From IMG/VR virus record IMGVR_UViG_3300032241_003323, positions 1-64,000 of that record: a stretch of DNA of 64,000 bases; one strand, given 5' to 3'. Of this stretch, positions 12,438 through 47,362 are shown piece after piece. Below the pieces are notes generated by a model, which saw only the letters and a list, made by a program, of their open reading frames with translations, searched no databases and was not told the origin of the DNA. A program made the position numbers and the translations under genes. Numbering within the stretch: position 1 is the stretch's first letter; the number at the start of each line of letters is the position of its first letter. Source of the DNA: a virus.

Positions 12438-15206
12438 TCACTCCATGACGCAATTAGAAAAATATTCCAAAACTTCATCGTCAGATAACGCTTTTTCCTT
12501 TTGTTTTTTACCAGGAGCAAGCACATAAACTCTAATATCCTCATGTTTATGACGATATTTCTTCTGACCTCTCCACTTTCCAGCTTGATTGCTTTCCAAA
12601 AGGAAAGTCTTAAAACCGCCCGATGGAGGCTGAAGTCTTACTCTAAGTAAGTTACCTGGAACAAATTTATTTGTTTTTTCATCCCAACCAAACTCTTTTG
12701 ACCACCACTCCCAGTCATCTGGCCAAATGTTTATTGTCGCTTGCTGACCTGTAACATCCTCAGCAACAATCTTCCAATAAGCATTGCCATTCTTGCTTTC
12801 GCATCTTTTTCCATCTTTTATTTTGATTTCAACTGGAGATGTAGACCCCGATAGATCACTATTTAAAGCATCAAACGTCAAATTGCCATGATAATCAGGG
12901 CTTAATTCCAATTCATGAATCCACGCAAATCCATAATATTTTTCCTCACACCCAACAGGATCAGAAAATTCTTTGACCAATTTCGGATCAATATCATATT
13001 CGTGAGGATTAAATTCAGAAAATTTTGGAAGAATTGACCTATCAAAGTTTTGGTATTTTTTGATAGTTTTCTTTCTTTTTTGCCAAAGTTTTCGCAACTC
13101 TTTCCAAGCATTCCAAGTCTTTTTCACATTTTTAGAACGATAAAATACTATAGTTTCTTGTTGAACATACAATCCTGTATCTTCAACTTCAATTTCTTCA
13201 ATTTCAATCCGTTCAATCGCACCTTCATCGTCTTTGCTGCAAACAACATTTTTTGATGCGTCTATTTCTTGATCAATGTCATATTTAGATTTCCACTCTT
13301 CGGAGTCGAATGGATTTTCAACATCCGACTCTAAATCAGCTAACGTGCAGCTTTCTGTTAGTGCTAATTCTTTAAATTCTTGCTCATATCTTTCCAGGGA
13401 AGCATGGTAACGAGCATGAGATGATTCTATCTTTTTAAAACAATTTTTATAATGTTCGGAAAATTTCCAAAGCGTAACAGGATCAGCATCTTTAAAACAA
13501 CGAAGTCCCAACAAAGGCTTTAAAACGTTGGCTTCAGTGCCAAATTTGTACAAAAATTCCTCAAATGAAGAATATGGCTGAGAGGCTACAATTTTTTTAG
13601 CAACTTCTTCTCCAATTCCCTTTATCTTGCTGAATCCAAAATAAATATCGTCTCCGATAAGTTCAAAGTTATCAGAAGCTTTATTTACATCAAGAGATTT
13701 TATGCCAACACCATGAATTTTCGCCTCCATTTTATATTCTTTAATTTTGTCGCTTAAAGTCTCACAGCTTAAAATAGAATTATAAAATTCATGACGATAA
13801 TGAGCTTTCAAATACAGAAGCCGCATTGAAATATATGTGTAGCTAACCGCATGGGATTTATTAAAGCCGTATTCACTAAATGATTCAACTTGATTATAAA
13901 AATCATTAATTTCTTTATCGGTACATCCTAAATTTTTTCTTCCGTTGCACAAAAACATTTCTTTATATTTGGCAATCATATCAATTTTCTTCTTTGAAAT
14001 TGCCTTACGTACAATTTCACAGTCCCGAAGAGGAATTTCACCAACAACATTTAAAATTTGCATAATTTGTTCTTGAAAAACCATAACTCCATAAGTTTTT
14101 TCAAGAATCGGTCGAATCAAAGGATGTAAATCAAATTTCTCACGACCACGCTTTCTTTCGATATATCGCTCATGCATGCGACAATTCAAAGGACCAGGAC
14201 GAAACAAACTGGCATAAACAACTAAATCCTCAAATCTATCAACACCACCAGCCCTAACTAAATTACGAATTCCTTCAGAATCAAATTGGAATATACACTT
14301 TAAATCTCCACTGTTGGCCATTTTTAAAGAATCAGGATCATTTCTCCACTTTGCAACATCAGTCCAATCAGAGCCTCCAGGTCTATTGCAAATTCCATCA
14401 ATTCCATGACGCTTTTTGATTAATTCACAACATCTTGCAATTTGCAAAAGGTTGGAAATAACCAACAAGTCAAATTTAATCAAACCCACGGGTTGCAAGT
14501 CTTGTCCGTGTAATCCTTCCACCCAAGCACTTGCTTGTGGACTGTCTTTTCTTTTAACTAAAGGAACAAGATCGTGTATGGGCATTTTAGATATGATTAA
14601 ACCACCAGCATGTAGCCCCATGCCACGATTACGATTCAATAATTTTTTAGCGGCAACTGCAACATCTGGATGTTCTTCACAATATTTATTCAGTTCAGGA
14701 TACTGCTTCATAGCAGCATCCCAAGTCATAGCATTTCCATCTTCATCTTTATTATCAACATTTTTTGTTAAAGCCAAAACTTCATCACGGCTTAAATCAT
14801 GAACACGAGCCATATCAATCAAAGCAGATTTCAAACCAAATGTTGTATAATTGCTAATATTACAAACATAATCCTCTCCAAATGTTTGAGGAGCCCAAAC
14901 ATTTTTCAAAATATCTCTAATGTCTGCAATATAATCCACATCAACGTCTGGCAAATCTCCATCAAATCTAGAATTAGGCTCTTTTTCTATAGAATAATCA
15001 GGAGCAATTCCCAAAAGCCAACAAACAATTAAATTGTTCTCATTATAAGCAACTTTTAATCCCTTTTGATATAAATCTGCAAAATAACCAACCTTGTTTT
15101 TGGCAATTATTTCTTCTTTTTCCCATTTAAGCCTTTTTTGATACCTAACATCTTTGTCTAGATTTAAATCAACCAATTTTTTCTGGCAAATATCAAAAAT
15201 GTCCAT
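12438..15206 (-). CDS. dnaE: DNA polymerase III alpha subunit, C-terminal part
   Basis: 922 residues, the catalytic-core and C-terminal half of a C-family replicase. The palm aspartates are in PDVDVD (residues 86-91), with the third in 'LIKFDLL'. Other family blocks follow in order: 'GLHAGGLIIS', 'FQFDSEGIRNL', 'LFRPGPL', 'YGVMVFQEQIMQI', 'FNKSHAVSYTYISMRLLYLK', a helix-hairpin-helix ('FSKIKGIGEEVAKKIV') and a C-terminal OB domain ('YWKIVAEDVTGQQATINIW'). The PHP domain and the GRGSxAGS loop are missing; they are encoded by 19305-20718. Residues about 24-50 still carry the helix that normally precedes GRGSxAGS, so this segment exists in both halves. GAGG lies eight bases before the ATG. Both parts must pair in trans to make an active enzyme. 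Confidence 0.93.
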   Translation of the reverse strand: MDIFDICQKKLVDLNLDKDVRYQKRLKWEKEEIIAKNKVGYFADLYQKGLKVAYNENNLIVCWLLGIAPDYSIEKEPNSRFDGDLPDVDVDYIADIRDILKNVWAPQTFGEDYVCNISNYTTFGLKSALIDMARVHDLSRDEVLALTKNVDNKDEDGNAMTWDAAMKQYPELNKYCEEHPDVAVAAKKLLNRNRGMGLHAGGLIISKMPIHDLVPLVKRKDSPQASAWVEGLHGQDLQPVGLIKFDLLVISNLLQIARCCELIKKRHGIDGICNRPGGSDWTDVAKWRNDPDSLKMANSGDLKCIFQFDSEGIRNLVRAGGVDRFEDLVVYASLFRPGPLNCRMHERYIERKRGREKFDLHPLIRPILEKTYGVMVFQEQIMQILNVVGEIPLRDCEIVRKAISKKKIDMIAKYKEMFLCNGRKNLGCTDKEINDFYNQVESFSEYGFNKSHAVSYTYISMRLLYLKAHYRHEFYNSILSCETLSDKIKEYKMEAKIHGVGIKSLDVNKASDNFELIGDDIYFGFSKIKGIGEEVAKKIVASQPYSSFEEFLYKFGTEANVLKPLLGLRCFKDADPVTLWKFSEHYKNCFKKIESSHARYHASLERYEQEFKELALTESCTLADLESDVENPFDSEEWKSKYDIDQEIDASKNVVCSKDDEGAIERIEIEEIEVEDTGLYVQQETIVFYRSKNVKKTWNAWKELRKLWQKRKKTIKKYQNFDRSILPKFSEFNPHEYDIDPKLVKEFSDPVGCEEKYYGFAWIHELELSPDYHGNLTFDALNSDLSGSTSPVEIKIKDGKRCESKNGNAYWKIVAEDVTGQQATINIWPDDWEWWSKEFGWDEKTNKFVPGNLLRVRLQPPSGGFKTFLLESNQAGKWRGQKKYRHKHEDIRVYVLAPGKKQKEKALSDDEVLEYFSNCVME

Positions 15207-19304: not shown

Positions 19305-20718
19305 TCACGCAGGAATTGCGTCTTTAAATTCAAGAATTAAAGACCTACCACCACGAGCTTCACTCATAAATCTACTAAACAAAAGATCTTCATAAATTGG
19401 GTCCACATTAGTTACACCCAAAAGATAAAGAGTCAATGATCCTGCACCACTTCCTCTTCCTGGACCAACTGCCTGAGATCCATCTCCATAACCAAGAATT
19501 TCTTTACATATGCGACGAGCTTCATCAGTCATCATTTTTTGAATCAAAAAATAACTAGAAAATCCTTTTCGGGTAATAAGACTGTACTCTTCTTTAATTC
19601 GCTCAATATATTCTCTAGTTTGCGATAATCCACGCATTTTAATGCCTTTAATTATTTCTTCTTTAAGAATTTCATCGGCATCTGGAATTTCTGGAAGTTT
19701 TAACGACCTGTCTAATTTTACACCTTTAGCCTTATTACATATTTCAACTGTATTCATCTTCGCTTGACAAAATAATTCATAAGGAATTACATCAGAATAA
19801 TCCTTTAACCACTTTTCATTTATTTCTTCTTCGGATTTCATCCAAAGATTCGCATCCTGTAATTCAAAAAAATCTTGCATCTGATCTTGAGCCATCGCAT
19901 TCTTAATGTCCATTATTGTTCTATTGGTTTGAACCATAAGCATTAATCTTTGAAAATGACTATCCTCCTGATTGCAATAATGACAGTCGTTTGAAATTAT
20001 AATTTTTAATCCATATTTTTCGTGAGCTTTAACAATAAATGCGTCATATGGTTTTTGCTTGTGAAAATCAAGAAGCATCATTTCTAAGAAATAATGATCT
20101 TTTCCAAACATGTCAACATAACGCTCTATTACATCAAACGCTGCATCTTCTCCGTGTTGATCAAACGCTCTTCCAACTTCGCTGTTGTAGCAACACGATG
20201 TAAAAAACAACCCTTCTTTATGTTTTAAAAGCTGATCATAATTAACTCTTGGGCGACGATAAAATCCTTTAACCCATGCCCAAGAAGACAATCTGACCAA
20301 ATTTTTATATCCAACTTCATTATATGCAATTGCCAACAAGTGAGGACTTGATCTGCATTCCTTCTTTTCATCCTCATTTAAATCATCCATGTACTTTTGC
20401 ATATAATCCAATCCAGTAGATTCTGGCTGGAGATTGTTTACATATAACTCGACTGCAAAAATAGGAGAAAGAGTATCTTTCCCCATTTTATCGTTTATTT
20501 TATCGCACGCTTTAATTTGACGTGGAACGGCACTCATCATGCCGTGATCGCTTATTGTCAAAAATTTTTGATTAATTTTAGGAGCACGTTGTGAATATTC
20601 TTCTACAGTTCCAAAACCATCTAATAAAGACATATCGGTATAGCTAGTGCAAGTGAAGATGTTCAAAACCGACAATCTTCACTTGCGACTGGCCTCCTTT
20701 CAAAATAATCTGAGTCAT
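19305..20718 (-). CDS. dnaE: DNA polymerase III alpha subunit, N-terminal part, with apparent frameshift
   Basis: Encodes the PHP domain and the first part of the palm. An ATG at 20718 with a good site (GAGGAG) opens a 24-codon frame ending 'GFEHLHLH' then TAG (20644-20646). In the next frame the protein goes on at once with 'SYTDMSLLDG...ISDHG', so HLHLH plus this restores the canonical PHP start; a +1 shift (or one-base indel) is needed. Without it, only a poor TTG at 20675 could start the 456-residue frame. Later PHP blocks ('NDCHYC') and palm motif GPGRGSGAGS are intact. The protein stops after 'LLFSRFMSEARGG' plus a 13-residue tail, exactly where PDxDxD should follow; that part is in the separate gene at 12438-15206. 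It overlaps the upstream small gene by ATGA. Confidence 0.85.
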
Positions 20719-20912
20719 CTGACTCTCCTCGGTGTGATATTTTTTGAAATGAGCCAACTCTCAAATTGAGTTGGATCGTATTTGCCGCCTTTTGAGATGT
20801 TCTCGTTATACATCATGGGTTGAAGATTGTCAAGGCTATTGATCGCTTTAATGTCAGTGACGCCATAATCAATAAAGGCTTTAATTGGATGATTTTTTAT
20901 AATAATAAACAA
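20715..20912 (-). CDS. Small hypothetical protein upstream of dnaE-N
   Basis: Up to 65 residues if it begins at the TTG at 20912; the first ATG in frame is at 20816 (33 residues) and neither has a clear ribosome site. The stop TGA overlaps the dnaE-N ATG (ATGA), a coupling arrangement common in this genome, which supports it as real. The C-terminus is basic ('SKNITPRRVR'). No family recognised. Confidence 0.4.
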   Translation of the reverse strand: MFIIIKNHPIKAFIDYGVTDIKAINSLDNLQPMMYNENISKGGKYDPTQFESWLISKNITPRRVR

Positions 20913-21579
20913 GCATTGTTTTTTCAGAACTCATCATTCCACGATTTTCATTTCCAACATAATACAATTTTTGATCAAAAGGCAGCGATGCTTCGTTGGA
21001 AAATAATTTCATGAACCAATTACCAATTTTTAAAATTAAATAAATTGGCGAAGAAACAATATCCTTAATATATTCAGGATCTACCAAAGGATATCCAACG
21101 TTTTTATAAATTGTAGCAACACATTCTGTACAATAAAATTTATTAGGATCAGAAAACGTAAAATCATAGTCTGGATCTAAATCCAGAACATTTTGAATTT
21201 GTTGTGAAATTTTATCTCTTAAATCTTGATCAATATTTTTCAATCTATAAATTGAAAAATCATCCCCATAAGAAGTATCCAACCAATCAACCAATCTATA
21301 AAGAACAGTTCCTTGATCATTTATTTCTAATACAAATTGAGAATCTTCTTTTATAAATGCAATTGCGGAATGAGAATATTTTCCTTTAGATAGCAAAGAA
21401 ACCAATCGGCTAAAAGGAAGTCCTAAAGGACCAATTGCATTGCTAGATCGGTAAAGAATATCTCCAGTTTCAAGAGGTATTTTTTTTAATTGATCTTCAA
21501 TTTGATATCGGACCTCATGAAGAGGTCCGAATTTGAACATCAATTCTTTAACTTTTTCATCGGTAGTCTTTTGCACCAT
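20881..21579 (-). CDS. NlpC/P60-type (YiiX-like) cysteine peptidase
   Basis: About 232 residues from the ATG at 21579; GGTGG lies a few bases upstream. The frame is open further, but that part is the shadow of the tail-spike gene. The order of motifs is that of circularly permuted NlpC/P60 proteins such as YiiX: 'TGDILYRSSNA', 'GKYSHSAIAF' with the candidate His, and 'FYCTECVATIYK' with the candidate Cys. Such enzymes cleave peptides of the cell wall or act as lipid-anchored amidases. The start overlaps the end of the tail-spike gene by 23 bases, so the two are coupled and may act together at the cell envelope. Confidence 0.65.
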   Translation of the reverse strand: MVQKTTDEKVKELMFKFGPLHEVRYQIEDQLKKIPLETGDILYRSSNAIGPLGLPFSRLVSLLSKGKYSHSAIAFIKEDSQFVLEINDQGTVLYRLVDWLDTSYGDDFSIYRLKNIDQDLRDKISQQIQNVLDLDPDYDFTFSDPNKFYCTECVATIYKNVGYPLVDPEYIKDIVSSPIYLILKIGNWFMKLFSNEASLPFDQKLYYVGNENRGMMSSEKTMLVYYYKKSSN

Positions 21580-23908
21580 AATATCCACCAGGATTTTTGT
21601 CAATTGCTGGAATGTTTGTAGGTGTGTACTGAGCCACATAATCATTATATGTATAATACGCATTATACATTCCAGACCAACTTCCCACAGCCCTACTCTT
21701 AAAATAATTAAATAAACCCATGACATAGTTTACATCAGGAAGATTTTTTGAAGCAAAGGTTGGATCAGCAGTTAGAACAACAGAATTAACGTCTAATCCA
21801 ATAGATTGCCATGGATTTATATCGGCAGAATATTGATTTCCAAATTTAAAACTTGTCTTACAATTATTTTTCTGATATGCATTATAATTCCATGACAATT
21901 TATTAACAGGGACTGGATTTTCTATAATGGCAGCCGACATAAGAGGATTATTCTTATAATCAACTCCAGTCGCAATCCTATTAATAACTAGATTATGATC
22001 AATAATTGCTTTTTTGGTTGGTGAATGATTATTCATACCAATTCCACCAGCATCAATTGTTGTTTCGTGACGAACAGCAATATAAGCAGGATAATTAGGA
22101 CCACCACTATCATGAAGGAAAGCATAAATTCCATCAAAATTAGCAACTTGCTTCCTGGTTTGATCTATTCCAGAGTTACCAATAGTGAAATTAAAGTCGT
22201 GAATTCCAACATATCCATAACTTGGTCCTGGTGACACAATATGATTATAAAGACCCACATTAAAGAATAAGTTCTTATAACACATGTGAGTGTCATCAGA
22301 ATTATAATTAGATGGGTTTCCTGCAAATACATTATATGCAGCAACACCACCACCTCTCATTTGCATTCCACTCAAACCGCCATCAAAGAAATAACATCCA
22401 TGAGCCACAACCTGCCTAGACATAGCAGAAAGATAAACATTATGATTAAATATATCATTATATTGTGGATCTTTTAAATCTTTCCATCCATTTTTAACAA
22501 ATTGAGATTGACTAAACAACCAATCTCCACAATGAGCAGCAAAAAATCCTTGAACGTGTGCAGGAAAAGTTGGAGAACTCAAAGAAGAGTGAACTAAAGT
22601 TCTATGAAACATACAACCAATAGGAGCAATATGTTGAGCACTTCCATAACTTCCAACTAAACAGAAATTTTGAAAAATACAATCGCTTAACACAACAAAA
22701 TCATTTGGAGTGTTAGTAACCCAATAAGTATTGGCAACTAAACTTGTATCTCTTCTAAATTCCAATCCTCTAAAATATTGATAAGGCCAACCACCATATA
22801 AAGCCCTGCCGCCACAAGTTGTATCGCCTTGACCAAATAAAGTGAATCCATTTTTGTATGAATCAGGATCTGATGAATCTTGCAATACAGGACGAGCATG
22901 AGGGTCATTTCCATAAGCAGGATTCCAATAACTTTCATAAAGAGTTGGAGTTGAAATTCCTGTTCCCCAATGCGCAGTAATCCATGGATCTGCTGGCCAA
23001 ACGTATCCACGAAGCCAAGCAAAACGAACATTTTTCTGATCGCTTTTAATAATAGTATCGGCATATTTCTTAGTTTTAAAAGGCTTATCCATAGTTCCAG
23101 CATCTGGACTATCAACACCATGAGAATAAGAAATATAAACAGAACGTGTGAAAGTAAACCTATCTGTTGCTAAAAATCCAATATTATTTACTACAGACAA
23201 ATTAACAGCATTATAATTTACGACTTGTTCTGTTCCTAAACCATTTTCATCAACAACAATATTAGCAGGAGCATTAATTGAAACCTGATTTCCGCAAACA
23301 ATTGATGTTGCAAGCAAACATGTTACTGTTACTGTTACCGACTTGCTTGACCAAGGCTTGGTAACATCTGAGCTTCCATTATCTAAAATATAACTAGTTG
23401 GGCTATTTAAATTCGCAAATGGAACATTAGCAACCAAAGCAAGATTTTTTACAATTGGAACTGATGTGCATGCGTAAATATTTACAGATTGATCCGGTTG
23501 AACTGGAACCCTCCAATTCAACAATACTTTATTTTTATTGTCAAGACAAAAACCACTTTGTTCACCATAAGCATAAATCGGAGGACCAGTAAATATTTCA
23601 TTGCCGTTTTGATCTGCAATTGCGATCAAAAAATAATAATTTCCAGCAACGAAATTTCCTCCAGAATATGGTGGATCTGCCCATGGCAAAGGCATATTCC
23701 AGTCCTCTGCCTGAACGCCGATTACCTCTGCTTGTTGTCCATTAACGGATACAGATAATCCGCTATTTTTTCCAGGAAGATAATCAAAAAATCCACAATC
23801 ATTAATTCGATTTAAAGGCTGTTGTCCAACTGAAACTCCAGCCTCAAACTGCATTCTAACCGTCAATCCATCACCAAGAACCTTAGCCGACGTTAATTTA
23901 AAACTCAT
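21557..23908 (-). CDS. Large tail-spike or receptor-binding protein, beta-helix type
   Basis: 783 residues. The N-terminal ~270 residues are beta-rich with Ig-like spacing. From about residue 275 the composition changes to parallel beta-helix style with repeated short strands and Asn/Gly/His turns, for example 'NDFVVLSDCIFQNFCLVGS', 'IFNHNVYLSAMSRQVVAHGCYFF' and 'AIIDHNLVINRIATGV'. This resembles pectate-lyase-fold tail spikes and depolymerases. I cannot point to catalytic acids. It is the largest non-enzymatic gene here, and its end overlaps the NlpC/P60-type gene. It probably binds, and perhaps degrades, host surface polysaccharide. Confidence 0.65.
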   Translation of the reverse strand: MSFKLTSAKVLGDGLTVRMQFEAGVSVGQQPLNRINDCGFFDYLPGKNSGLSVSVNGQQAEVIGVQAEDWNMPLPWADPPYSGGNFVAGNYYFLIAIADQNGNEIFTGPPIYAYGEQSGFCLDNKNKVLLNWRVPVQPDQSVNIYACTSVPIVKNLALVANVPFANLNSPTSYILDNGSSDVTKPWSSKSVTVTVTCLLATSIVCGNQVSINAPANIVVDENGLGTEQVVNYNAVNLSVVNNIGFLATDRFTFTRSVYISYSHGVDSPDAGTMDKPFKTKKYADTIIKSDQKNVRFAWLRGYVWPADPWITAHWGTGISTPTLYESYWNPAYGNDPHARPVLQDSSDPDSYKNGFTLFGQGDTTCGGRALYGGWPYQYFRGLEFRRDTSLVANTYWVTNTPNDFVVLSDCIFQNFCLVGSYGSAQHIAPIGCMFHRTLVHSSLSSPTFPAHVQGFFAAHCGDWLFSQSQFVKNGWKDLKDPQYNDIFNHNVYLSAMSRQVVAHGCYFFDGGLSGMQMRGGGVAAYNVFAGNPSNYNSDDTHMCYKNLFFNVGLYNHIVSPGPSYGYVGIHDFNFTIGNSGIDQTRKQVANFDGIYAFLHDSGGPNYPAYIAVRHETTIDAGGIGMNNHSPTKKAIIDHNLVINRIATGVDYKNNPLMSAAIIENPVPVNKLSWNYNAYQKNNCKTSFKFGNQYSADINPWQSIGLDVNSVVLTADPTFASKNLPDVNYVMGLFNYFKSRAVGSWSGMYNAYYTYNDYVAQYTPTNIPAIDKNPGGYYGAKDYR

Positions 23909-24146: not shown

Positions 24147-24746
24147 TTATTCCTCAATAAATTTATGAAATTTAATTTCTTTTCCTTCAATTAAAACTTT
24201 AGGATCAATAAATGATAAAAGTTTTGGCTTTCTAGATTTAGCATCATAATGAAGCCAAATCTGACATTTTTTATAAATTTTAGAACTCAAAACTAGTTTT
24301 GCACCATAACCAAAAGGCTTTATATTCGTCAAAATATTTGATTCTAAAAATTCGTTCCACATCGCATTGTTGATTTTATGCACCGTCTTCCCATTGACCA
24401 CTCTAATCATACCTTTAATAACTGATACATACATAAAATACTCATATTTCATGTCTCTTCCTACAATATTGTCAGGACTATCAAAACCATAAAAAGGATC
24501 AAATAAAGAAGATAAAATATCTGTTTTAGAAGATTCTAACTCTTCTTTTGAGTTTAATCTTACTTTAATTGCACATCGCAAAGGCTTACCCGATTTCGCC
24601 ACTGTCCAACAATCAGTTTTCTCACGACAGTCTTCATAAAATGTGCTTTCATGTAAATTATATCCATTATTATTTAAATAAATACGAATGCGGTCTTCCC
24701 AACTTTTCCCAATTTTAACACGCTCTGAAATGCTCAAACTATTCAT
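24147..24746 (-). CDS. Hypothetical protein, possible PD-(D/E)XK nuclease fold
   Basis: 199 residues. An N-terminal helix with Glu ('GKSWEDRIRIYLNNNGY') is followed by 'REKTDCWTVAKSGKPLRCAIKVRL', which fits the core E...D...(x)IKxR of restriction-endonuclease-like folds. The following region includes 'IVGRDMKYEYFMYVSV'. GAGG lies eight bases before the ATG. The family is uncertain; the nuclease idea rests on the spacing of Asp45 and Lys in 'AIKVR' only. Confidence 0.45.
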   Translation of the reverse strand: MNSLSISERVKIGKSWEDRIRIYLNNNGYNLHESTFYEDCREKTDCWTVAKSGKPLRCAIKVRLNSKEELESSKTDILSSLFDPFYGFDSPDNIVGRDMKYEYFMYVSVIKGMIRVVNGKTVHKINNAMWNEFLESNILTNIKPFGYGAKLVLSSKIYKKCQIWLHYDAKSRKPKLLSFIDPKVLIEGKEIKFHKFIEE

Positions 24747-24820: not shown

Positions 24821-25504
24821 TTAAAAACATTCTTTTATTTTTTCTAAACTATCGAAATCATTTTGACCAAAAACACCATCGGAAAAACCATAATAAACTG
24901 ACTCTTCTGCGTTTAAATTCCAATCTCCCAATCTTCTAATTTTTTTATCAATAAATTTCATGACCGCTTCATGATTCATTTTCTTTTGAACAAAATAAGA
25001 ACCATTTACAGCTCTGTTCGCATATATTTGCAGCATTCTAATATCCATTTTTTTATTCCACGCTGCATTAGACTGAACTGTAGTTGTAACACCTTCCAAG
25101 CTAAGAAACCCACGATGAATCATAAATTCACAGGATGGCATCATAATTCTTTTACATGCCGATTGAAGCAATATACTGCTCATTGAAGACACTTCGCCAT
25201 AAGCCAATATCGTGACTGGAGAAATGGCTGCTTTTATAGCGTCAAACATTGCCATACCATGAGACCAATCTCCACCCGGACTCTGTAAGTGAACCAATAT
25301 GTTTTGCTTGGTATTATCTCGATCTAATAAGTGTAAATTTTTAACAAATTGAGTGGCCATTCGATATTCAATTCCATTTTCTTCCTCATGACCAGAATAA
25401 TGACTGTGTAAATAAATTTCACGACTTAAAAAATTCAAATCATAATTATGAATTTGATTTGTTAATTCTATAAAATTATCTGAAAAATTTTTCTTTTTAG
25501 ACAT
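24821..25504 (-). CDS. clpP: ClpP-like serine protease
   Basis: 227 residues. Family blocks are present: 'ILVHLQSPGGDWSHGMAMFDAI', then the catalytic Ser in 'YGEVSSMSSILL' and the His in 'SCEFMIHRGFLS'. The third residue (Asp) is expected in the 'DIRMLQIYANR' region. The protein is a little longer than bacterial ClpP. It could form a barrel protease with a host ATPase (ClpX/ClpA), or process phage head or tail proteins. The ATG overlaps the SpoVR stop by one base, so it is translationally coupled to the SpoVR-YeaH-PrkA block. Active-site identity is from the motif, the substrate is unknown. Confidence 0.85.
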   Translation of the reverse strand: MSKKKNFSDNFIELTNQIHNYDLNFLSREIYLHSHYSGHEEENGIEYRMATQFVKNLHLLDRDNTKQNILVHLQSPGGDWSHGMAMFDAIKAAISPVTILAYGEVSSMSSILLQSACKRIMMPSCEFMIHRGFLSLEGVTTTVQSNAAWNKKMDIRMLQIYANRAVNGSYFVQKKMNHEAVMKFIDKKIRRLGDWNLNAEESVYYGFSDGVFGQNDFDSLEKIKECF

Positions 25505-27093
25505 TATTCTCTCTCAAACTCCTTACGAGTAACAACTTGAACATCTCTATCGCTGTTTAATCCATAGCAACAAAAAACTTTTTCAGTACCATCTTCATCT
25601 TTTGTGGCCAAGAAAACATCTTCATTCCAAATTGCTCTCAGTGAAGTCAAAACATCTGCAATATAAGGCTCATAAATATTTCTACCATCATAGTAATGCT
25701 GAAGAAACATCGAGCCTTGTCCTCGATAATTAGGCTCAGTAATTCGAATGTCGGGAAGACCTCCATTCAAATGCCGTCTCATTAAAAGATGTTTGATTTC
25801 TTTATAATCTCTGTTTTCAATTTTAAATTCTCCATTTGGATAATGCTTCCAGTGGAAATATTCCTGTTCTCTACAAAAATCTTCAGTAAAAAATTCATGA
25901 ATGAATGTAAAATCATCATAATATTTTCGAACTTCAAAAATCTTTTCTTTGCCAAGATTTGCACCTGTATCCCAGCTTTCCTTTGTTTTAATGTTAGAAC
26001 AATTGTCCCATTCTGTTCCAAATCTTCCCTTGTCCCATCTTTCACGAATATCTTTTAATAAATAATATCCAAGTTTATAAGGATTCATTGAATATTTTCC
26101 ACCTAAAACTCCCATCTTATGATTGGCGTATTCAACAATCCCGCAATCATGCGATTTTTGACCCAAAGCAACAAATCCCTGTTCTGCCATAATCACAGAA
26201 TCAGTCATTGAAGCCCAACCCTCATTAAGAGTTTTAGTTTGTCTTTGTGGAAAAAAGTACATAGCCTCTTCATACAACATCGAAATAATGTCAGCCTGCC
26301 AAGGTTTGAGAGGGGCATTATCTCTCAAAAATGCAAGCACATTTTTAGTTGGTTCTTTAAAAACACCAATTTCGTCCGCAGCATCTTTTTCAATAATTTC
26401 ATTATTTTGTTTTTCTTTAAAATCGTTTGTATTTAGGAATGGCTCCATATACAAACGATTTTTATCAACAGTCAATCTTCTGGGTTGATGGTAGACTCTT
26501 GCATCACGAATATTTTTTTCTTTAATAATTCGATCAGTCCACGCTTCAGCCCCATCAATTAAAGTCTCTAATCGCATCACATAATCAAGAAACTCAGTTA
26601 CTCTTTCTTTGCCCCATCTGGCCATATATTTTCTAATACGTGTTCCATGATTTGCCATTTTGTTCATCATGTTAGTGTCTGTAGCACTAAAGTGAATATT
26701 ATTCTTAAAAAAATCATTATGTCCAGTAGCGTGTGCAACTACAGTCAAATGATCAAGCAACGTATTAGAACTTAAATTGTATATATAGCATGGATTGGTA
26801 TTCACGACCATTTCATATATTTTATGCATACCAAATTCATATCCACGCTGTAATTCTTCATATTCCATACCAAATGACCAGTGTGGAAACCTAACAGGAA
26901 AGCCACCATAAGAGGCAATTTCGCTAATTTCATCATAAGTCAGTAATTGAACTACAGTAGGATAAAAATCCAAACCCCAGTCCCTACATGCCTGAAGAAT
27001 TTTAGGGATTAAATCTTTTAACTCTTTTGAAAGTTGAACTCCAGGAACAGTATTATCACCAAGAAGAATTGGAGCACCATGCATAAATCCCAT
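25504..27093 (-). CDS. SpoVR family protein (YcgB-like)
   Basis: 529 residues, full length for the family. Recognisable blocks are 'DFYPTVVQLLTYDEISEIASYGGFP', 'RFPHWSFGMEYEEL', 'NPCYIYNLSSNTLLDHLTVVAHATGHNDFF' and 'FFPQRQTKTLNEGWASM', with several conserved His/Glu pairs that could bind metal. SpoVR is needed for spore cortex formation in Bacillus, and its E. coli homologue YcgB is genetically tied to the PrkA kinase (YeaG) and YeaH. The same three-gene set is present here, on one strand with YeaH directly upstream. Its biochemical activity is unknown in any organism. GAGGG lies before the ATG. Confidence 0.92.
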   Translation of the reverse strand: MGFMHGAPILLGDNTVPGVQLSKELKDLIPKILQACRDWGLDFYPTVVQLLTYDEISEIASYGGFPVRFPHWSFGMEYEELQRGYEFGMHKIYEMVVNTNPCYIYNLSSNTLLDHLTVVAHATGHNDFFKNNIHFSATDTNMMNKMANHGTRIRKYMARWGKERVTEFLDYVMRLETLIDGAEAWTDRIIKEKNIRDARVYHQPRRLTVDKNRLYMEPFLNTNDFKEKQNNEIIEKDAADEIGVFKEPTKNVLAFLRDNAPLKPWQADIISMLYEEAMYFFPQRQTKTLNEGWASMTDSVIMAEQGFVALGQKSHDCGIVEYANHKMGVLGGKYSMNPYKLGYYLLKDIRERWDKGRFGTEWDNCSNIKTKESWDTGANLGKEKIFEVRKYYDDFTFIHEFFTEDFCREQEYFHWKHYPNGEFKIENRDYKEIKHLLMRRHLNGGLPDIRITEPNYRGQGSMFLQHYYDGRNIYEPYIADVLTSLRAIWNEDVFLATKDEDGTEKVFCCYGLNSDRDVQVVTRKEFERE

Positions 27094-27147
27094 GTTTTTT
27101 CCCTCAGTTAAATTTAAAAAAAATTATATAGAAAAATGTTCAACCGT

Positions 27148-28359
27148 TCAATCAGATTCTTTTGAAATTTTAGAAGGATTTCCAAGCAATTTCTTAATTG
27201 CATTCATAATTTGATTGTTTCGATCTTCTTCACTTAAAATCGACATTCCATGTCTATTGGGCTGATCGGGTCCAATTGAAACAGTGCGAACACATTCAGA
27301 ATCCAACCGACCTTCTACAATGGCTCTATCAACATTATCTTTAACACTGTCTTGGTAACTATAAGCTAGAATTTGAGTGATACCAGTAAAATTAACAACA
27401 TCTGGAGTAAATTCTTCCTCTAAAGTTTTTATGAAAACTTCATTGTCATCATGCCAATTATCACCATCTGTAAAATAAAACACATAAACATTCCACTTTT
27501 CGGGAGGATAACGATTTTCAAATTGTTTTGAAATAAATTTAAGTGCAGAAGAACATGTTGTTCCTCCACCAAACCTATATTTATAAAATTTATCTTCGTC
27601 AACTTCCATTGCAATCGAATCATGCCAAACATAAAGACGATCTACACGATCATAGAATCTACGAATCCATGTATCAATCCACCACGACATATCTGAAACG
27701 ATATCGCACTTGGCATCGTCCATTGATCCTGATCCATCTCTTGCAAAAACGATTAACGCATTGCTAGATGGAATTTTTATTTCATTATATTGTCTATATC
27801 TCTTATCATCATTAATAGGTTGTAAAACACGCACAGGATCTTTTAGTCCAGGCACATGCTTCAACTTATCCAGAGTTCCCTCTAATGCCTGTCTCTTTAG
27901 TGTTTGCATTAGAGTTCTGCGATTGTGTCTAAGAGATTCTGGACCAATTAAAGAAATATTATTATATTTTATTTTGACCTCATCATAAACTTCGTTAGGC
28001 TTCTTTTTTAAATTAGGAAGTTGAAGTTCATCTTGCATAAATTTAAGGACTTCCTCCAAGTCCAAATTTATTACAATGCCTTCTGACTCATCTTGACCAG
28101 CACCCTTACCTTTACCCTTGCCTGGATCTTTTCCAATTACATCTCCATCTTTTCCTTCGCCACGACCAACTCCCTCGTTGCCACTTCCATATACAATGTG
28201 AGGAATATCGACTTTGGGAATAGTGAAAGAAATCTTTCCGTTCTTTCCCCTTTTTCTAATAATATTTCCACTCTTTATAAACTTTTTCAAAGCTCTTCGA
28301 ATACGACCAGAAACAACATCTCTAAAATCTTTATGATCTTCTTCTATGCGTCTTGGCAT
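27148..28359 (-). CDS. YeaH/DUF444 protein with vWA-like domain
   Basis: 403 residues. The N-terminus starts with the family signature MPRRIEEDHKDFRDVVSGR; a Gly/Lys-rich linker (about residues 65-95) follows. A von Willebrand A-type domain begins about residue 200 with a MIDAS-like 'DGSGSMDDAK' (the usual motif is DxSxS). In bacteria YeaH and the PrkA kinase YeaG form a stress-response pair active under starvation. Upstream of it here lie a small gene and prkA, downstream SpoVR. GAGG precedes the ATG. Confidence 0.92.
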   Translation of the reverse strand: MPRRIEEDHKDFRDVVSGRIRRALKKFIKSGNIIRKRGKNGKISFTIPKVDIPHIVYGSGNEGVGRGEGKDGDVIGKDPGKGKGKGAGQDESEGIVINLDLEEVLKFMQDELQLPNLKKKPNEVYDEVKIKYNNISLIGPESLRHNRRTLMQTLKRQALEGTLDKLKHVPGLKDPVRVLQPINDDKRYRQYNEIKIPSSNALIVFARDGSGSMDDAKCDIVSDMSWWIDTWIRRFYDRVDRLYVWHDSIAMEVDEDKFYKYRFGGGTTCSSALKFISKQFENRYPPEKWNVYVFYFTDGDNWHDDNEVFIKTLEEEFTPDVVNFTGITQILAYSYQDSVKDNVDRAIVEGRLDSECVRTVSIGPDQPNRHGMSILSEEDRNNQIMNAIKKLLGNPSKISKESD

Positions 28360-28370
28360 GTTTACCTCTT

Positions 28371-28727
28371 TTATAACTTTACAATAAATTTAAAAGAATT
28401 TTCTTCAGTATTACAATGAAATTGTAATACTTCCATTTCGCACATAAACCAATCATAAAGTTTATTTTCAGAATTATCCATAAATCTTTCAAATAAAAGA
28501 TCTTTAAAAGTATCTTTTCCATCATTGCTGAAGGAAAGATCAAACGATCCATGACCATCCTGGTTTCCATCAGCACCAGAAATATGCATAGATTCCAATA
28601 AATCTATTTGATCCTCTGACAAAGAAAAATAAATATCATTAAAATATTTACAATCTTTGATTATTTCAGAAATGACAGAACCTAAATCTTCAAACTTGTT
28701 TGTTTTGCTTAACCAATAGTTTTTCAT
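28371..28727 (-). CDS. Hypothetical acidic protein in the PrkA block
   Basis: 118 residues, acidic and Phe-rich ('DGHGSFDLSFSNDGKDTFKDLLFERFM'). GGAG lies seven bases before the ATG. It sits between prkA and yeaH, a position that in bacterial operons is not normally occupied, so it may be a phage-specific regulator or adaptor of the kinase. No family recognised. Confidence 0.55.
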   Translation of the reverse strand: MKNYWLSKTNKFEDLGSVISEIIKDCKYFNDIYFSLSEDQIDLLESMHISGADGNQDGHGSFDLSFSNDGKDTFKDLLFERFMDNSENKLYDWFMCEMEVLQFHCNTEENSFKFIVKL

Positions 28728-28759
28728 CGCAATCTCCAGTGTTTTAAAATTATATGATT

Positions 28760-28789
28760 GAGAGGGGAGCCATACAAGCTTCCCCTCTC
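28760..28789. terminator. Intercistronic hairpin after prkA
   Basis: GAGAGGGGA and TCCCCTCTC form a perfect 9-bp stem with a 12-base loop between prkA and the following gene. No T run follows on the minus strand, so it may be an attenuator, RNA-processing or mRNA-stability element rather than a full terminator. The stem sequence recurs in terminators at 53651 and 60663. Confidence 0.6.
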
Positions 28790-28802
28790 ATAAATGGAAA
28801 AA

Positions 28803-30881
28803 TCAATCATCTTCTGCAAGATCGCCACGAGCAAAAATTCCACCCACAAAATCTAACACATCCGTTGCACTTCTTTCGTTATATCCATACTGTTTGATCA
28901 AACGAGTTTTAATCGCATCAATCTTTTCTTGAATGTCCTTGTCCACAACAGTGGCACCACTGACATTCAGGGCACTTAATTTAATCGTATCCTTGACATC
29001 TTCGAAAAGCTTCATTTCTAAGGCTTTTCTAAGTTTTGGATTGCTGTCCCAACGGAACGACTTGCCCTTATGAGCCAAGTCACCAATAAATGCTGCAATT
29101 TGCCGACGAAAATCTTCACATCCAGTATCAGGAATTTGAATCTTCTCTTCGATCTGTCTCATCAATCTTTCGTCAGGCTTGCGGTCTTGACCTGTGATTG
29201 GATCTTTAATCTTGGACTTATTGATAAATGCCATAACATTATCAATATAATTAGAACACAGTCTAATAATCGCATCTTCGTCTCCAACCAAAGCCTTTTG
29301 AACCTCATTCTTCAAAATGTCAGTTAGCTTTTTAAGAGACAAGTCAATACAAGTAATGTAACGTCCGACTTGCTCTCTATTAGTCAAGAGAGAAGAGTGC
29401 TCAAGACCATCTCGAAGTTCGTTTAACACCATGAACATGTTTACATAATCATGGTTATTAGCCAAACAATTTGAAATTTTATCCTGAAGATATCGAACGC
29501 TAACCCCGCCATTCATACCTTCATCTGGATACTTGTCTTTCATTTCCTTAACAGAATCTTCTGTCCATCCAGGAAGAAGCCTGTTATCATAAAGCTCTGC
29601 TTTTTCAACCAGACTAATTTTCCCATCTTTATCATCTTGAAGACGGGTCAATACACTCCATAAAGCAGCAATTTCCAATGTATGTGGAGCAATATGCTGT
29701 TTCACCTTGCCTGGACCGTAGTCCTTCTCAAGAATTTGTAGTTCCTCAGACCACTTCAAAGTATAAGGAACATCAATCTTTGTAGTGCGATCCCGAAATG
29801 CTTCCATATACTGATTGCTTCTAAGCTTTTGGAATTCAGGATCGTTTGTGTGAGCTATAATAGCTTCATCAATTGAAACCTGAGAAAACTTCTTCGGCTT
29901 AATGCACTGCTCTTGAGAAGCACCCAAAAGATCATAAAGGAATGCAGTATCGAGCTTCAAAGCCTCGATAAATTCTACAATTCCACGATTGCCAACGCAA
30001 AATTCACCATCAAAAGAGAACGCTCTTGGATCAGAATCAGATCCAAAATTGCCAATTTGACGGAAATTAATGTCACCAGTAAGTTCTGTGCTATCCTGAT
30101 TCTTCTCATCTTTAGGTTGAAATGTTGCAATGCCACAACGATCAGATTCACTATAAACTTTACGAATTACTCTAACGTGATTTTCAAGAACCTTTTCAAG
30201 ATCACCATCGTACTTCTTCAACAAAACATTCATGAATTTGTTGCAAAGAGGATCTAATTCAGTGTTACACTTTAACGTGTAAAGATCTTGCTTTCTTTCC
30301 TCTGAAGCGTTCTCTTCATGAATTCTATTTAATTCCTCCATAAGAGAAATTCTGGACTCTAAAGGAAGAAGTTTAAGTGGCTGCTCATGCATTGGGCATA
30401 AACATTCATTGTCCGTGTAAATTCCATCAATTCCTGTGGGCAAGTTTACCCATTTAAATGAATACCAAGACCCAGGTTCTGTCCTAGAATATCGTTCTAG
30501 CCCACGCTTAATCAATCTACAAATCGTAGATTTGGCACTTCCAACAGGCCCATGTAACAAAAGAATTCTTCGCTCAGTTCCATAACCACCAGCAGCACCT
30601 TTAATGAATTTGACCAAGGAATCCTTCATTGGGGTCAAACCCACAATTGGAATTTCCTCATCATCAAAAAAATTATAATGAATATAAGTTTTGCGGTATT
30701 CCTCAACAGGAAAACATCCTTTTTCCATGATCATATCATAAATTGTTTGCCATGCGTTTCTTAACAAGAAGGGCTTCTCATAGCAAAGCTCTAAATATTC
30801 TGAAAAACTCATTTCAGAATTAATTGTACGAAACTGATTTCTATTAAAATTGCCTATGACTTTCTTTAAAGCTGTTGTCAT
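28803..30881 (-). CDS. prkA: PrkA-type serine protein kinase (YeaG-like)
   Basis: 692 residues, close to the bacterial PrkA length. The AAA-like P-loop is 'LLHGPVGSAKSTICRLIK' (about residues 108-125). The rest keeps family landmarks including 'EELNRIHEE', the long region with 'GNRGIVEFIEALKLDTAFLYDLL' (sensor-like region, common in PrkA as 'NRG...EF.E..K') and 'TNDPEFQ', and the PrkA C-terminal domain with 'GGVSVRYLQDKIS'. In bacteria it phosphorylates proteins in starvation and stationary-phase responses, or acts as a AAA+ protease regulator. Upstream of a small gene, yeaH, spoVR and clpP on one strand. GGAGG precedes the ATG. Confidence 0.94.
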   Translation of the reverse strand: MTTALKKVIGNFNRNQFRTINSEMSFSEYLELCYEKPFLLRNAWQTIYDMIMEKGCFPVEEYRKTYIHYNFFDDEEIPIVGLTPMKDSLVKFIKGAAGGYGTERRILLLHGPVGSAKSTICRLIKRGLERYSRTEPGSWYSFKWVNLPTGIDGIYTDNECLCPMHEQPLKLLPLESRISLMEELNRIHEENASEERKQDLYTLKCNTELDPLCNKFMNVLLKKYDGDLEKVLENHVRVIRKVYSESDRCGIATFQPKDEKNQDSTELTGDINFRQIGNFGSDSDPRAFSFDGEFCVGNRGIVEFIEALKLDTAFLYDLLGASQEQCIKPKKFSQVSIDEAIIAHTNDPEFQKLRSNQYMEAFRDRTTKIDVPYTLKWSEELQILEKDYGPGKVKQHIAPHTLEIAALWSVLTRLQDDKDGKISLVEKAELYDNRLLPGWTEDSVKEMKDKYPDEGMNGGVSVRYLQDKISNCLANNHDYVNMFMVLNELRDGLEHSSLLTNREQVGRYITCIDLSLKKLTDILKNEVQKALVGDEDAIIRLCSNYIDNVMAFINKSKIKDPITGQDRKPDERLMRQIEEKIQIPDTGCEDFRRQIAAFIGDLAHKGKSFRWDSNPKLRKALEMKLFEDVKDTIKLSALNVSGATVVDKDIQEKIDAIKTRLIKQYGYNERSATDVLDFVGGIFARGDLAEDD

Positions 30882-31469: not shown

Positions 31470-31826
31470 TTATTTGACTTCGCCCCAAGCATTGTCATTA
31501 TCTAAATCATTTATGGGATTATAAACATCTGTTCCCATGTGAGATTTTTCTTCGGCGTTTCTCCGCTCCTCAATAACCCTCGGAAGATTATGATGAAAAC
31601 GATAATCGTGGCCAGAAGTTTCACTGTTCCAACGATCAGTGCCTTCAGGATTAGAAAACATAAAACCACAAACAGAAAGCAATTTTTCTTTACTTTTTGA
31701 TCCACAATCGGGACATTTTACAGTTTTATATTTCCCAGTTGAGTCACATGATGTCAACTCTTCATAAACTTTAAAACATTTTCTACATTTAAATTCATAT
31801 AAGGGCAAAATAAACCTCTCATTCAT
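31470..31826 (-). CDS. FmdB-type zinc-ribbon protein
   Basis: 118 residues. The N-terminus 'LPLYEFKCRKCFKVYEEL' followed by 'VKCPDCGSKSKEK' is the FmdB/Zn-ribbon signature: P-x-Y-[ED]-[FY]-x-C-x-x-C then C-P-x-C-G. The C-terminal half is charged and specific ('TDRWNSETSGHDYRFHHNLP'). FmdB proteins are putative regulators and occur in several phages. The start lies within the end of the upstream gene, so it is coupled. Confidence 0.75.
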   Translation of the reverse strand: MNERFILPLYEFKCRKCFKVYEELTSCDSTGKYKTVKCPDCGSKSKEKLLSVCGFMFSNPEGTDRWNSETSGHDYRFHHNLPRVIEERRNAEEKSHMGTDVYNPINDLDNDNAWGEVK

Positions 31827-33643: not shown

Positions 33644-33864
33644 TTGTTTTAAAACTATACCGATTACAAGGATGCAAAGACAGAGAAACCATTATTAAAC
33701 ACATTCATCTTTTTAGAGGAATGTTAATGGTCATGCTGGAAAGAGATCCAGGCGATCTAGACAATGTTCCAGATATTTTAGATTTAATAAATATTCCATA
33801 TAAAAATGAATATAATGAATATTATATTGATGAAAATTGGCTAGAAGAAAATGGAATTAAATAG
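33613..33864 (+). CDS. Hypothetical protein
   Basis: 83 residues; N-terminal helix-rich ('ESQIKKLIVLKLYRLQGCKDRETIIKHIHLF') and an acidic C-terminus ending 'YYIDENWLEENGIK'. The ATG is 13 bases after a GGAG, so translation may depend on the overlapping 33497 frame. Converges on and overlaps the hldE stop by eight bases. No family recognised. Confidence 0.5.
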   Translation: MLTESQIKKLIVLKLYRLQGCKDRETIIKHIHLFRGMLMVMLERDPGDLDNVPDILDLINIPYKNEYNEYYIDENWLEENGIK

Positions 33865-35224
33865 ATTTAATTTTATTTATAATATCTGTTGTAGACAAAT
33901 TATTCACCATTGGTGCCAATACAATTTTTGGAACAATATCATATCCAGCTATACTCTCTACTTTATATTCTGATCCTTTTACCAAAACATCTGGCATTAT
34001 TTCTTTAATCAGATTTAATGGCGTATCTTCATTAAAAGGCACAACAAAATCAACAAATTCTAAAGATTCCAATAATTTCATGCGATTTTCAAGCGATACA
34101 ATTGGCCTTCCTGACTTTATCCTTGAAACACTTTCATCAGAATTTACTGCAACAATCAATTTGTCGCCTAAAGATTTTGCAAATTTTAACGTCTCTATAT
34201 GACCGACATGCAATATATCAAAACAACCATTTGTAAAAACCAATTTATAATCTCGTGAAGAAAAATCAAAATTTCTCAAAATCTTAGGAGAAAAGTCATT
34301 TTTGCATAAAGGTTTATTATGTTTACTTTTCACATAAATCACTCCAGCATTCCAAGCAAGCAGAGCAGATTCCCTAATTGACATACCACGAGCCATTGCC
34401 ATTGCCAAAAATGCAGAAAAGCAATCTCCAGCACCAATTACAGACTCTGCGGGATTTAACTTGTTTTCTGGCTTAAATTCAACAAATCCCGATTCATCAA
34501 ATACAGTGACTCCATCTCCAGCCTGTGTAATAACAACTGCTTTACATTTGATCTTATCAAGCAAGTAAATGCCAGCATCTTTTACAGTAGAACATCCCGA
34601 TAATGTCAACGCTTCTTGTTTGTTTGGCTTAAAAATTGTGCATCCCTTCCAACGCTCTAAATCTCCAGATTTAGGATCAACAATACTTATTTTTGCTTTA
34701 GAAATTAATTTATAAAGATGATTAGAAAAAATTCCTTTGCTATAATCCGAAAAAATTAAAACATCAAAATTAGAAATATAATTTTCAGCCTTATCATAAA
34801 GATCACAACAAAATTTTTCTAAATCTTTGCCTAAACCGTAATTTTCCTGTTCTAAATCCCATCTATAAACAGGAAAATCTTCACTATAAAACCTTCTTTT
34901 TCTAGGAATTTTATTTTTAATTACAGAACATAAAGATGTGTCTATTCCTTTGCAAATTAAAACAGATTGTGACTCTCTATCCAAAAAGGAAATAAGTTTT
35001 ACATCACAATTAAAGTGCTTAAATTGATAGGCGACATTAGACGCACCTCCAGGAAAATTTTCAGATTTATCATTATCTGAATGCATTATCGGTATTGGAA
35101 ATTCAGGCGATATCCTCTTTACATGAACATTAAAATATTGATCTATCATAGAATCGCCAACAACACCAATAGAAATCCTCCTATTGGTGTTGTTTAAATT
35201 TAAAAATTTTTCCAAAATATTCAT
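33857..35224 (-). CDS. hldE: Bifunctional heptose-7-P kinase / heptose-1-P adenylyltransferase
   Basis: 455 residues, the usual length of HldE. The N-terminal ~310 residues are a PfkB/ribokinase kinase: 'GVVGDSMIDQYFNV', 'FPGGASNVAYQFKHF' and the catalytic 'VIGAGDCFSAFLAMAMARG'. The C-terminal ~140 are a cytidylyltransferase-like domain: 'VFTNGCFDILHVGHIETLKFAKSLGDKLIVAVNSD', containing HxGH, and 'EDTPLNLI'. The enzyme makes heptose-1,7-bisphosphate from heptose-7-phosphate, then ADP-heptose after a phosphatase step, for LPS core synthesis. GmhA, GmhB and HldD are not in the window. With the heptosyltransferase-like genes at 6-8 kb it could feed a phage glycan or LPS modification. AAGGGG precedes the ATG, which overlaps thyX by four bases. 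Confidence 0.93.
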   Translation of the reverse strand: MNILEKFLNLNNTNRRISIGVVGDSMIDQYFNVHVKRISPEFPIPIMHSDNDKSENFPGGASNVAYQFKHFNCDVKLISFLDRESQSVLICKGIDTSLCSVIKNKIPRKRRFYSEDFPVYRWDLEQENYGLGKDLEKFCCDLYDKAENYISNFDVLIFSDYSKGIFSNHLYKLISKAKISIVDPKSGDLERWKGCTIFKPNKQEALTLSGCSTVKDAGIYLLDKIKCKAVVITQAGDGVTVFDESGFVEFKPENKLNPAESVIGAGDCFSAFLAMAMARGMSIRESALLAWNAGVIYVKSKHNKPLCKNDFSPKILRNFDFSSRDYKLVFTNGCFDILHVGHIETLKFAKSLGDKLIVAVNSDESVSRIKSGRPIVSLENRMKLLESLEFVDFVVPFNEDTPLNLIKEIMPDVLVKGSEYKVESIAGYDIVPKIVLAPMVNNLSTTDIINKIKSI

Positions 35225-37002: not shown

Positions 37003-38082
37003 TCAATGAGTTCTTAAATAATTCAATAGATTAGAAACATCTGGTGTTCCTAAGCCAGTGCAAGCATCCCATCCTCTTACAGCCGAATAGGCTCCATTAT
37101 TTCCACTTGTAATATCGTGAAATGGTTTGATATTTCCATTATAATTAAGAATAGGATATAAAACAGGATTAATAAATCCCAATTTTCTATTCAAAGCTTG
37201 GTTTAAAACAGCTACAACACCAGCCCAAAAAGGAGCCGAAGCACTGGTGCCACCAACAACTAAATTTTGACCATCAGTAATAACTCGAATTCCTGTGGCT
37301 GGATCTGCGTCAGACGCAACATCGGGAACACCTCTTTGATTTCTATAAATATTATTTTGAGGTTGATAAGATGGTTTTGCAAAAAAAGAACTTACTCCAC
37401 CACCCGTTGCTCCATAAGCGTCATTCCATACCGTCTCGTTTAAAATAACACCATTTGATGCAACACATGTTGTACCTCCGCAACAGAGAACATAAGGAGA
37501 ACTTCCAGGAAAATCCACATTATTTCCTGATCCTCCATCAGAAGACCCATTATCGCCCGAAGCACAACAAACTGTAATGCCTTGATTGGATGCATTTAAC
37601 AACGTGGAATTCATTAAATTTCGTTGCGATGTCGTCCAAGACCTCTCAGATGCACCCCAAGATATACTGATGACGTTGACTTTATCAACTATAGCTCTTG
37701 CAACAGCATCAACAAACCCTTTAAAAGAATTTGGGGCCATATAAACTTTAGGAGTTATTCCATTTGCAACTCCTATTGCAACGCAAAGGTCCAACATTAC
37801 CTCTACATCATCTGAATTTGCATTGGTAGGATGATTAATTCCACCATCAACCGAAACAAATTGTACGGGGTTTGAGTTTAAACCCAAAGAACTAAAATAA
37901 TTGTCTAAATCTCTTTGAACAAAACCACCACCTAATTCAATAAATGCAACAGTCTGTCCAGATCCATTATAATTTGCAGGAAAATTATATATTCTTTTTA
38001 AATCGACAGGAGTATAAACCGGATTAACAACATTTGAATTAAAAGAATATTCTTTAAGAACACGATAATAAGGTTTGAACAT
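37003..38082 (-). CDS. S53 family serine protease (sedolisin), propeptide-less
   Basis: 359 residues from the ATG at 38082 (AAGGAGG three bases upstream). It is a complete sedolisin catalytic domain: 'VYTPVDLKRIYNFP' entry, Glu and Asp of the triad in 'DDVEVMLDLCVAIG', the oxyanion Asp region 'NVISISWGASER', the Ser in 'VVGGTSASAPFWAG', and a Ca-binding end 'FHDITSGNNGAYSAVRGWDACTGLGTPD'. Cellular sedolisins are made with a large N-terminal propeptide that keeps them inactive; none is present and no signal peptide is seen. It could be a virion protease that acts during assembly or entry, released with the lysate. A TATAAATA box at 38114 suggests late expression. Confidence 0.9.
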   Translation of the reverse strand: MFKPYYRVLKEYSFNSNVVNPVYTPVDLKRIYNFPANYNGSGQTVAFIELGGGFVQRDLDNYFSSLGLNSNPVQFVSVDGGINHPTNANSDDVEVMLDLCVAIGVANGITPKVYMAPNSFKGFVDAVARAIVDKVNVISISWGASERSWTTSQRNLMNSTLLNASNQGITVCCASGDNGSSDGGSGNNVDFPGSSPYVLCCGGTTCVASNGVILNETVWNDAYGATGGGVSSFFAKPSYQPQNNIYRNQRGVPDVASDADPATGIRVITDGQNLVVGGTSASAPFWAGVVAVLNQALNRKLGFINPVLYPILNYNGNIKPFHDITSGNNGAYSAVRGWDACTGLGTPDVSNLLNYLRTH

Positions 38083-38113
38083 CTTCCTCCTTGTTTGTTT
38101 CAAACTCTATATT

Positions 38114-42898: not shown

Positions 42899-42933
42899 TA
42901 AAAATACTTTAAAAAATTTAATTGTGGCAGGTT

Positions 42934-43964: not shown

Positions 43965-43994
43965 GGCACCCCTTGAAAACACCTTACATTAAGG

Positions 43995-47307: not shown

Positions 47308-47336
47308 TTTGAATTCCTTTTTGAAAATGGGAAAAA

Positions 47337-47362
47337 GAGTCAACGAAGGACGAGCTTGCAAG
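47337..47362 (-). repeat. Isolated CRISPR-repeat-like element in the cas12i leader
   Basis: GAGTCAACGAAGGAC (plus strand) matches 14 of the first 15 repeat bases, and TTGCAAG follows after only four bases, so the middle of the repeat is missing. It keeps the orientation of the array and lies 30-55 bases before the effector ATG, inside its likely 5' leader. It could be a relic of a second array, a Cas12i binding site for autoregulation, or the repeat part of a guide acting on the cas promoter. Confidence 0.7.

Follow-up and report, generated by a model that had tools for sequence, protein, structure and literature searches.

Large phages carry an inherited PrkA-YeaH-SpoVR operon of bacterial type, with a ClpP-like protease as its probably facultative neighbour

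Bacterial PrkA, YeaH and SpoVR are associated with starvation and sporulation. The counterparts of the genes described here are the prkA/yhbH/spoVR families of Bacillus subtilis and yeaGH together with ycgB of Escherichia coli. Pairs of an AAA+ ATPase and a MIDAS protein commonly remodel one dedicated client. In E. coli, YeaG and YeaH jointly form a 'metabolic brake' in nitrogen starvation, an effect that was abolished in the catalytically defective control YeaG K426A (PMC10954441). A yeaG mutant remains metabolically active in starvation and its viability is lower (PMC4664914). Among phages, earlier annotations record PrkA and SpoVR in Thermus phages and in RsoM2USA, a jumbo phage of Ralstonia (PMC8504454).

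The window analysed here is a stretch of 64,000 nucleotides which forms part of a 70,041-base virus record. A sequence-only reading had noticed a run of five genes on its minus strand, and the list of open reading frames and profile searches bear this out at 24821-30881. The genes of the run and those flanking it are:

31470-31826, minus strand: FmdB-like zinc-ribbon protein (Zn_ribbon_8 slightly under cut-off)
28803-30881, minus strand: PrkA (YeaG family), AAA+ ATPase, 692 aa (AAA_PrkA 1e-76, PrkA C-terminal 6e-71)
28371-28727, minus strand: 118-aa acidic ORF, pI 4.4, without family
27148-28359, minus strand: YeaH/DUF444, von Willebrand A protein with MIDAS, 403 aa (Pfam DUF444 2e-61)
25504-27093, minus strand: SpoVR (YcgB family), 529 aa, with SpoVR_C (Pfam SpoVR 7e-105)
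24821-25504, minus strand: ClpP-like serine protease, 227 aa (Pfam CLP_protease 3e-25)
24147-24746, minus strand: 199-aa ORF after ClpP, no assigned function, syntenic in close relatives

From the ORF coordinates, the intergenic gaps are 75 nt between PrkA and the 118-aa ORF, 11 nt between this ORF and YeaH and 54 nt between YeaH and SpoVR, and the SpoVR stop and the ClpP start overlap by one base (TAATG). In this phage clade the trio usually has the FmdB-like zinc ribbon upstream of it, and that gene is syntenic in most phage loci. No relative of the 118-aa ORF was found in the fetched loci or in an IMG/VR scan, and as a homologue-less ORF it was rejected as a fourth component. No RNA families were found at 20-36 kb of the window. 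The 41 promoter matches are no more than chance would give (36.4 in shuffles), and there were 7 terminator-like sites against 3.1 +/- 1.9, most of them lying within genes. The record also codes for UvsX recombinase, a phage SSB and a match to a major head protein. Bacterial contamination was ruled out by these phage genes, by the terminases in related contigs and by the single phage clade described below.

YeaH matches the DUF444 (PF04285) profile and has the vWA MIDAS pattern (DxSxS, T, D), of which D208, S210, S212, T267 and D298 were invariant in 30 phage sequences. The fold predicted by AlphaFold is that of a von Willebrand A domain (mean pLDDT 73), and Foldseek matches to the model include the MIDAS domains of Rea1/MDN1 and the NorQD complex. 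SpoVR matches the SpoVR (PF04293) profile and SpoVR_C and has the HxxxH and NEGxA motifs. Residues H71, E94, H121, H125 and E291 are retained even in E. coli YcgB and the Thermus phages, and this His/Glu set could be a metal site. The AlphaFold model of SpoVR (pLDDT 80) gave no PDB match at E<=0.001 with Foldseek and thus the candidate metal site is put forward as a proposal only.

PrkA comprises an AAA_PrkA domain (residues 24-418) and a PrkA C-terminal domain (PF06798, residues 425-678), both far over cut-off, and residues 15-685 match a solved homologue, PDB 9xip (E 2e-208). Walker A, E303/E306, H344/N346 and R365 did not vary among 55 phage and 76 bacterial sequences, and the AAA+ residues including Walker A were unchanged throughout a comparison of 138 sequences, which included those of Thermus phages and E. 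coli YeaG. The position of E. coli YeaG K426 is occupied by Asp in 52/55 large-phage and 75/76 bacterial rows, and a Lys follows one position later, likewise in 52/55 and 75/76 rows, in an alignment that is ambiguous by one residue. In the same ambiguous alignment, the PrkA of Thermus phages has neither this Asp nor this Lys. Because of this ambiguity, the Asp does not disprove kinase activity. For the PrkA of B. anthracis, both kinase and protease activities were negligible in vitro; it undergoes ATP-driven oligomerisation and by prediction is a clade III AAA+ protein that has a pore loop (PMC13001217). A reading of PrkA as an AAA+ motor is therefore preferred to that as a kinase. The label 'kinase', given to this gene from the sequence alone, thus appears doubtful, since the invariant part of the protein is the AAA+ core and the B. 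anthracis protein has so little of that activity.

Loci for comparison were fetched from IMG/VR (29 SpoVR loci and the best 80 of 143 PrkA loci) and made non-redundant by clustering PrkA at 95%, and the window genes were mapped onto them. The order PrkA-YeaH-SpoVR was found in 49/49 assessable non-redundant loci of large phages and in 40/58 of the bacterial loci that the phage PrkA retrieved, both being conditional frequencies because the loci were chosen by PrkA similarity. Several bacterial phyla carry the trio, and the nearest bacterial PrkA loci are mostly from Myxococcota, Bdellovibrionota and Planctomycetota. A survey of carriage by phages had also been proposed, and in INPHARED few phages have the trio: PrkA matches came from 16 of 50,697 records, for the most part those of Thermus phages and huge phages. 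For phage pairs without saturation, dN/dS was ~0.02-0.10 in all four genes, and by this measure the trio is under strong purifying selection. As judged from gene linkage, the real unit is PrkA-YeaH-SpoVR, with the 118-aa ORF and ClpP outside it; the window trio, three adjacent co-inherited genes on one strand, qualifies as an operon. Its naming as the bacterial stress trio therefore holds on bacterial order, intact motifs and purifying selection. A loss of catalytic residues in several members was looked for and the motifs were found to be invariant.

The phage copies might also be decoys which poison the PrkA-YeaH-SpoVR complex of the host by mixed assembly. The PrkA family oligomerises with ATP (PMC13001217) and a host complex to poison would be available in several phyla. 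However, a decoy could do without a full set of three genes and without unchanging ATPase and MIDAS residues, yet all of these are kept under the selection noted above, and this explanation has only a small chance of being correct. The retention of three genes with intact motifs suggests that an activity is being supplied to the host rather than the host's own activity being poisoned.

Phylogeny of each trio protein gave a single, fully supported clade for the large-phage proteins. In the PrkA tree all 55 large-phage sequences form one clade (SH-aLRT 100, stem 0.98) inside the bacterial radiation, where the deep branching is weakly supported, and the SpoVR and YeaH trees (31 rows each) have one large-phage clade apiece with support 100. 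Since one phage clade is found in each of the three trees, the whole operon was probably captured once with vertical descent afterwards, this being the simplest reading. Unrelated origins without linkage, which had been raised as a possible outcome, are not what these trees display: there is one clade per protein and the linkage is kept. The branches are long, and naming an exact bacterial donor is therefore unsafe. Recent theft from a host was ruled out by the long stem and by the identity of the window PrkA to the best bacterial copy, which is ~54%. The Thermus phages, like the huge phages LR745206 and LR756504, fall outside the large-phage PrkA clade, and the simplest reading of this placement is that other phages acquired the genes independently at least twice more. 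Taken together, the comparisons of sequences, trees and gene order show the trio to be a phage version, passed on by descent, of the bacterial PrkA-YeaH-SpoVR operon.

The sequence-only reading had taken the linked ClpP as a hint that the set may act through proteolysis. PrkA would then unfold substrates selected by YeaH/SpoVR and feed them to the phage ClpP. The ClpP start does lie on the SpoVR stop codon here, ClpP directly follows SpoVR in 22/41 non-redundant phage loci and its Ser-His-Asp catalytic set (PF00574) is intact, with S107 and H130 invariant and D194 nearly so (Glu in L063). However, ClpP was found in none of 35 bacterial trio loci, and roughly every second phage locus lacks it. 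No ClpP match was found anywhere on ten trio contigs of 107-381 kb, which may be fragments, and four other trio contigs had exactly one each, beside SpoVR. In a ClpP-centred scan, 12 of 47 classifiable non-redundant relatives had no adjoining trio, and several of the ClpP cousins in such trio-less phages directly precede a terminase-like gene. The most telling case is that of the closely related contigs L214 and L221 (92% for the zinc ribbon, 93% for ClpP, 88% for RNA ligase): in L221 the trio stands between the zinc-ribbon gene and ClpP, whereas L214 has nothing at that site, and no PrkA was found anywhere on its 73-kb contig. The L214 ClpP is nested among the ClpPs of trio phages (SH-aLRT 99), hence L214 would most simply have lost the trio as a block and kept ClpP. 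On the linkage counts and L214, ClpP as the proteolytic arm of the trio was rejected as the main reading and must be considered very unlikely. The functional link suggested earlier is thus not supported, and ClpP is probably a separate phage gene, a facultative neighbour and not part of the machine.

The window ClpP scores under the NCBIfam cut-offs for cellular ATP-dependent ClpP (for example 71 bits against 249 for PRK00277 and 57 against 309 for clpP), and among PHROGs a head maturation protease is its best match. G002 and G009 are trio phages in which ClpP lies ~155-205 kb from TerL and from a T4 gp21-type prohead protease, which is itself near TerL. ClpP is therefore unlikely to be the prohead protease of these two phages, and the separate gp21-type protease and the distance to TerL led this assignment to be disfavoured in trio phages. 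No TerL match was found in the window's own record.

Relatives of SpoVR contain stop-free, in-frame inserts which start with Cys and end with His-Asn before Thr/Ser. Twelve distinct inserts are at N98/T99. At A294/S295, within NEGWAS, there are seven phage and five bacterial ones, including short inserts in Chloroflexota, so that the NEGWA/S site is common to phages and bacteria. The phage loci with SpoVR inserts are L019-L031, L045, L053, L079-L086, L101 and L106, and the bacterial loci are L121, L124, L157, L177 and L179. Similar inserts are present in the PrkA of L220 and L221, at F294/C295 and R286/287. From these sequence features the inserts are predicted inteins, marking strongly conserved motifs of SpoVR and PrkA. 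The window copies of SpoVR and PrkA are intein-free. No paper combining 'intein' with 'SpoVR' was found in the literature collection searched.

In the explanation that we favour, PrkA would be a ring-forming AAA+ motor, YeaH its MIDAS (vWA) partner in the manner of NorQ-NorD or Rea1/Midasin and SpoVR an enzyme or client activated by the pair. The phage would supply this activity in infection and thereby push the host into, or hold it in, a quiescent, stress-tolerant state; the adjacent ClpP would be a phage protease at the same spot, persisting without the trio. We consider the chances of this account, a phage-supplied PrkA motor and YeaH MIDAS partner working on or with SpoVR to shift host physiology, to be about even. 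The host-state role is plausible by analogy with the E. coli work (PMC4664914, PMC10954441). According to PMC9429907, sporulation sigma factors encoded by phages alter dormancy, which shows that phages do target such processes. The E. coli phenotype may not transfer to large phages because YeaG K426 aligns, in the ambiguous alignment, with Asp. The dispensability of the trio in L214 also counts against the account.

The tendency of AAA+/MIDAS pairs to remodel a dedicated client could also mean that the trio works as a chaperone which remodels some phage protein, in the assembly of heads or tails for instance, rather than as a host-state module. In the Thermus phage Lalka27a, unlike the large phages, YeaH-SpoVR-PrkA has a minor head protein on one side and TerL on the other (L194:4660-11382), and the trio of phiYS40 is near the terminase. 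The large-phage trio, however, is more than 100 kb from TerL where both were seen (G001, G002, G009), and L214 is without it although the neighbours stay. A chaperone of this kind is therefore thought unlikely. A role in phage-phage competition or counter-defence instead of host metabolism would agree with the presence or absence of the cassette as a unit and with the occurrence of other such systems in large phages, for instance at the window's Cas12i locus. Set against this are the links of the bacterial counterparts to starvation and sporulation and the lack of any convincing PADLOC match for PrkA, YeaH or SpoVR, and we regard such a role as improbable. Assignment to a known defence system was rejected, PADLOC having given one chance-level match only (E 0.0097).

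The favoured host-state explanation can be taken further, in a form that seems doubtful at present: a heritable, losable AAA+/MIDAS/SpoVR cassette might give a protected, quiescent cell for long infections, with SpoVR as an unrecognised metal-dependent enzyme.

Several other genes of the window may be recorded. A Cas12i (type V-I) effector of 1069 aa is encoded at 44152-47361 on the minus strand (PADLOC E 3e-210; PDB Cas12i2 E 3e-162). A CRISPR-like array of at least 16 repeats adjoins it at 42926-43979. From one repeat start to the next the distance is mostly 71-74, although 54-56, 83 and other values occur too, the spacers being unequal in length. DNA polymerase III alpha is split into two minus-strand ORFs, 12438-15206 and 19305-20675, separated by ~4 kb and other genes, the parts being the PHP domain with the start of the NTPase domain and the remaining NTPase domain with the fingers. 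A subtilase-family serine protease of 366 aa lies at 37003-38103 on the minus strand (Peptidase_S8 1e-10), and a YaeF/YiiX-like C92 amidase ORF at 20881-21726, also minus strand, overlaps the end of a family-less 783-aa ORF. An HldE-like sugar kinase/nucleotidylyltransferase (33857-35224) was recognised by eye from its sequence alone. The ORF at 54694-56013 encodes a CCA-adding/poly(A) polymerase-like protein.

The new points are that the large-phage clade is deep and passed on by descent, that the trio behaves as one unit, that a close relative cleanly lacks it, that ClpP is dissociated from it and that predicted inteins have invaded SpoVR and PrkA. The phage copies offer a natural experiment, with close relatives with and without the cassette, genes kept together and inteins on functional sites, and this compact phage-borne set is testable in a laboratory strain without its own genes. 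If the host-state reading is true, large phages would govern bacterial quiescence by a borrowed machine, beyond sigma factors alone.

In comparison with known systems, the bacterial prkA-yeaH-spoVR operons share with the window trio the families, gene order, strand and AAA+ and MIDAS residues, and the closest subtype is that of the three phyla named above. The large-phage trio differs from them in forming one deep clade with stricter linkage (49/49 against 40/58), in often having ClpP next to it and in having inteins at extra sites. In the Thermus phages phiYS40, TMA, phiLo, Lalka and MN1, PrkA, YeaH and SpoVR, where annotated or matched, are together as in the window. However, their order is YeaH-SpoVR-PrkA, their PrkA is ~30% identical to the window's and it occupies a separate branch of the tree, and because of these differences the Thermus trio is read as an independent acquisition. 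RsoM2USA (PMC8504454) and the huge phages LR745206, LR756502 and LR756504 also have SpoVR and PrkA. The PrkA of these huge phages is of the E. coli-like type; it shares ~25% identity with the window PrkA and falls outside the large-phage clade, and that of RsoM2USA is of the same type judging from the best-match table of PMC8504454. NorQ-NorD, Rea1/Midasin and RavA-ViaA likewise have an AAA+ motor gene beside a vWA protein with a complete MIDAS, but PrkA is an AAA+ family of its own (PF08298), so that the likeness is in working only, and SpoVR has no counterpart in any of the three.
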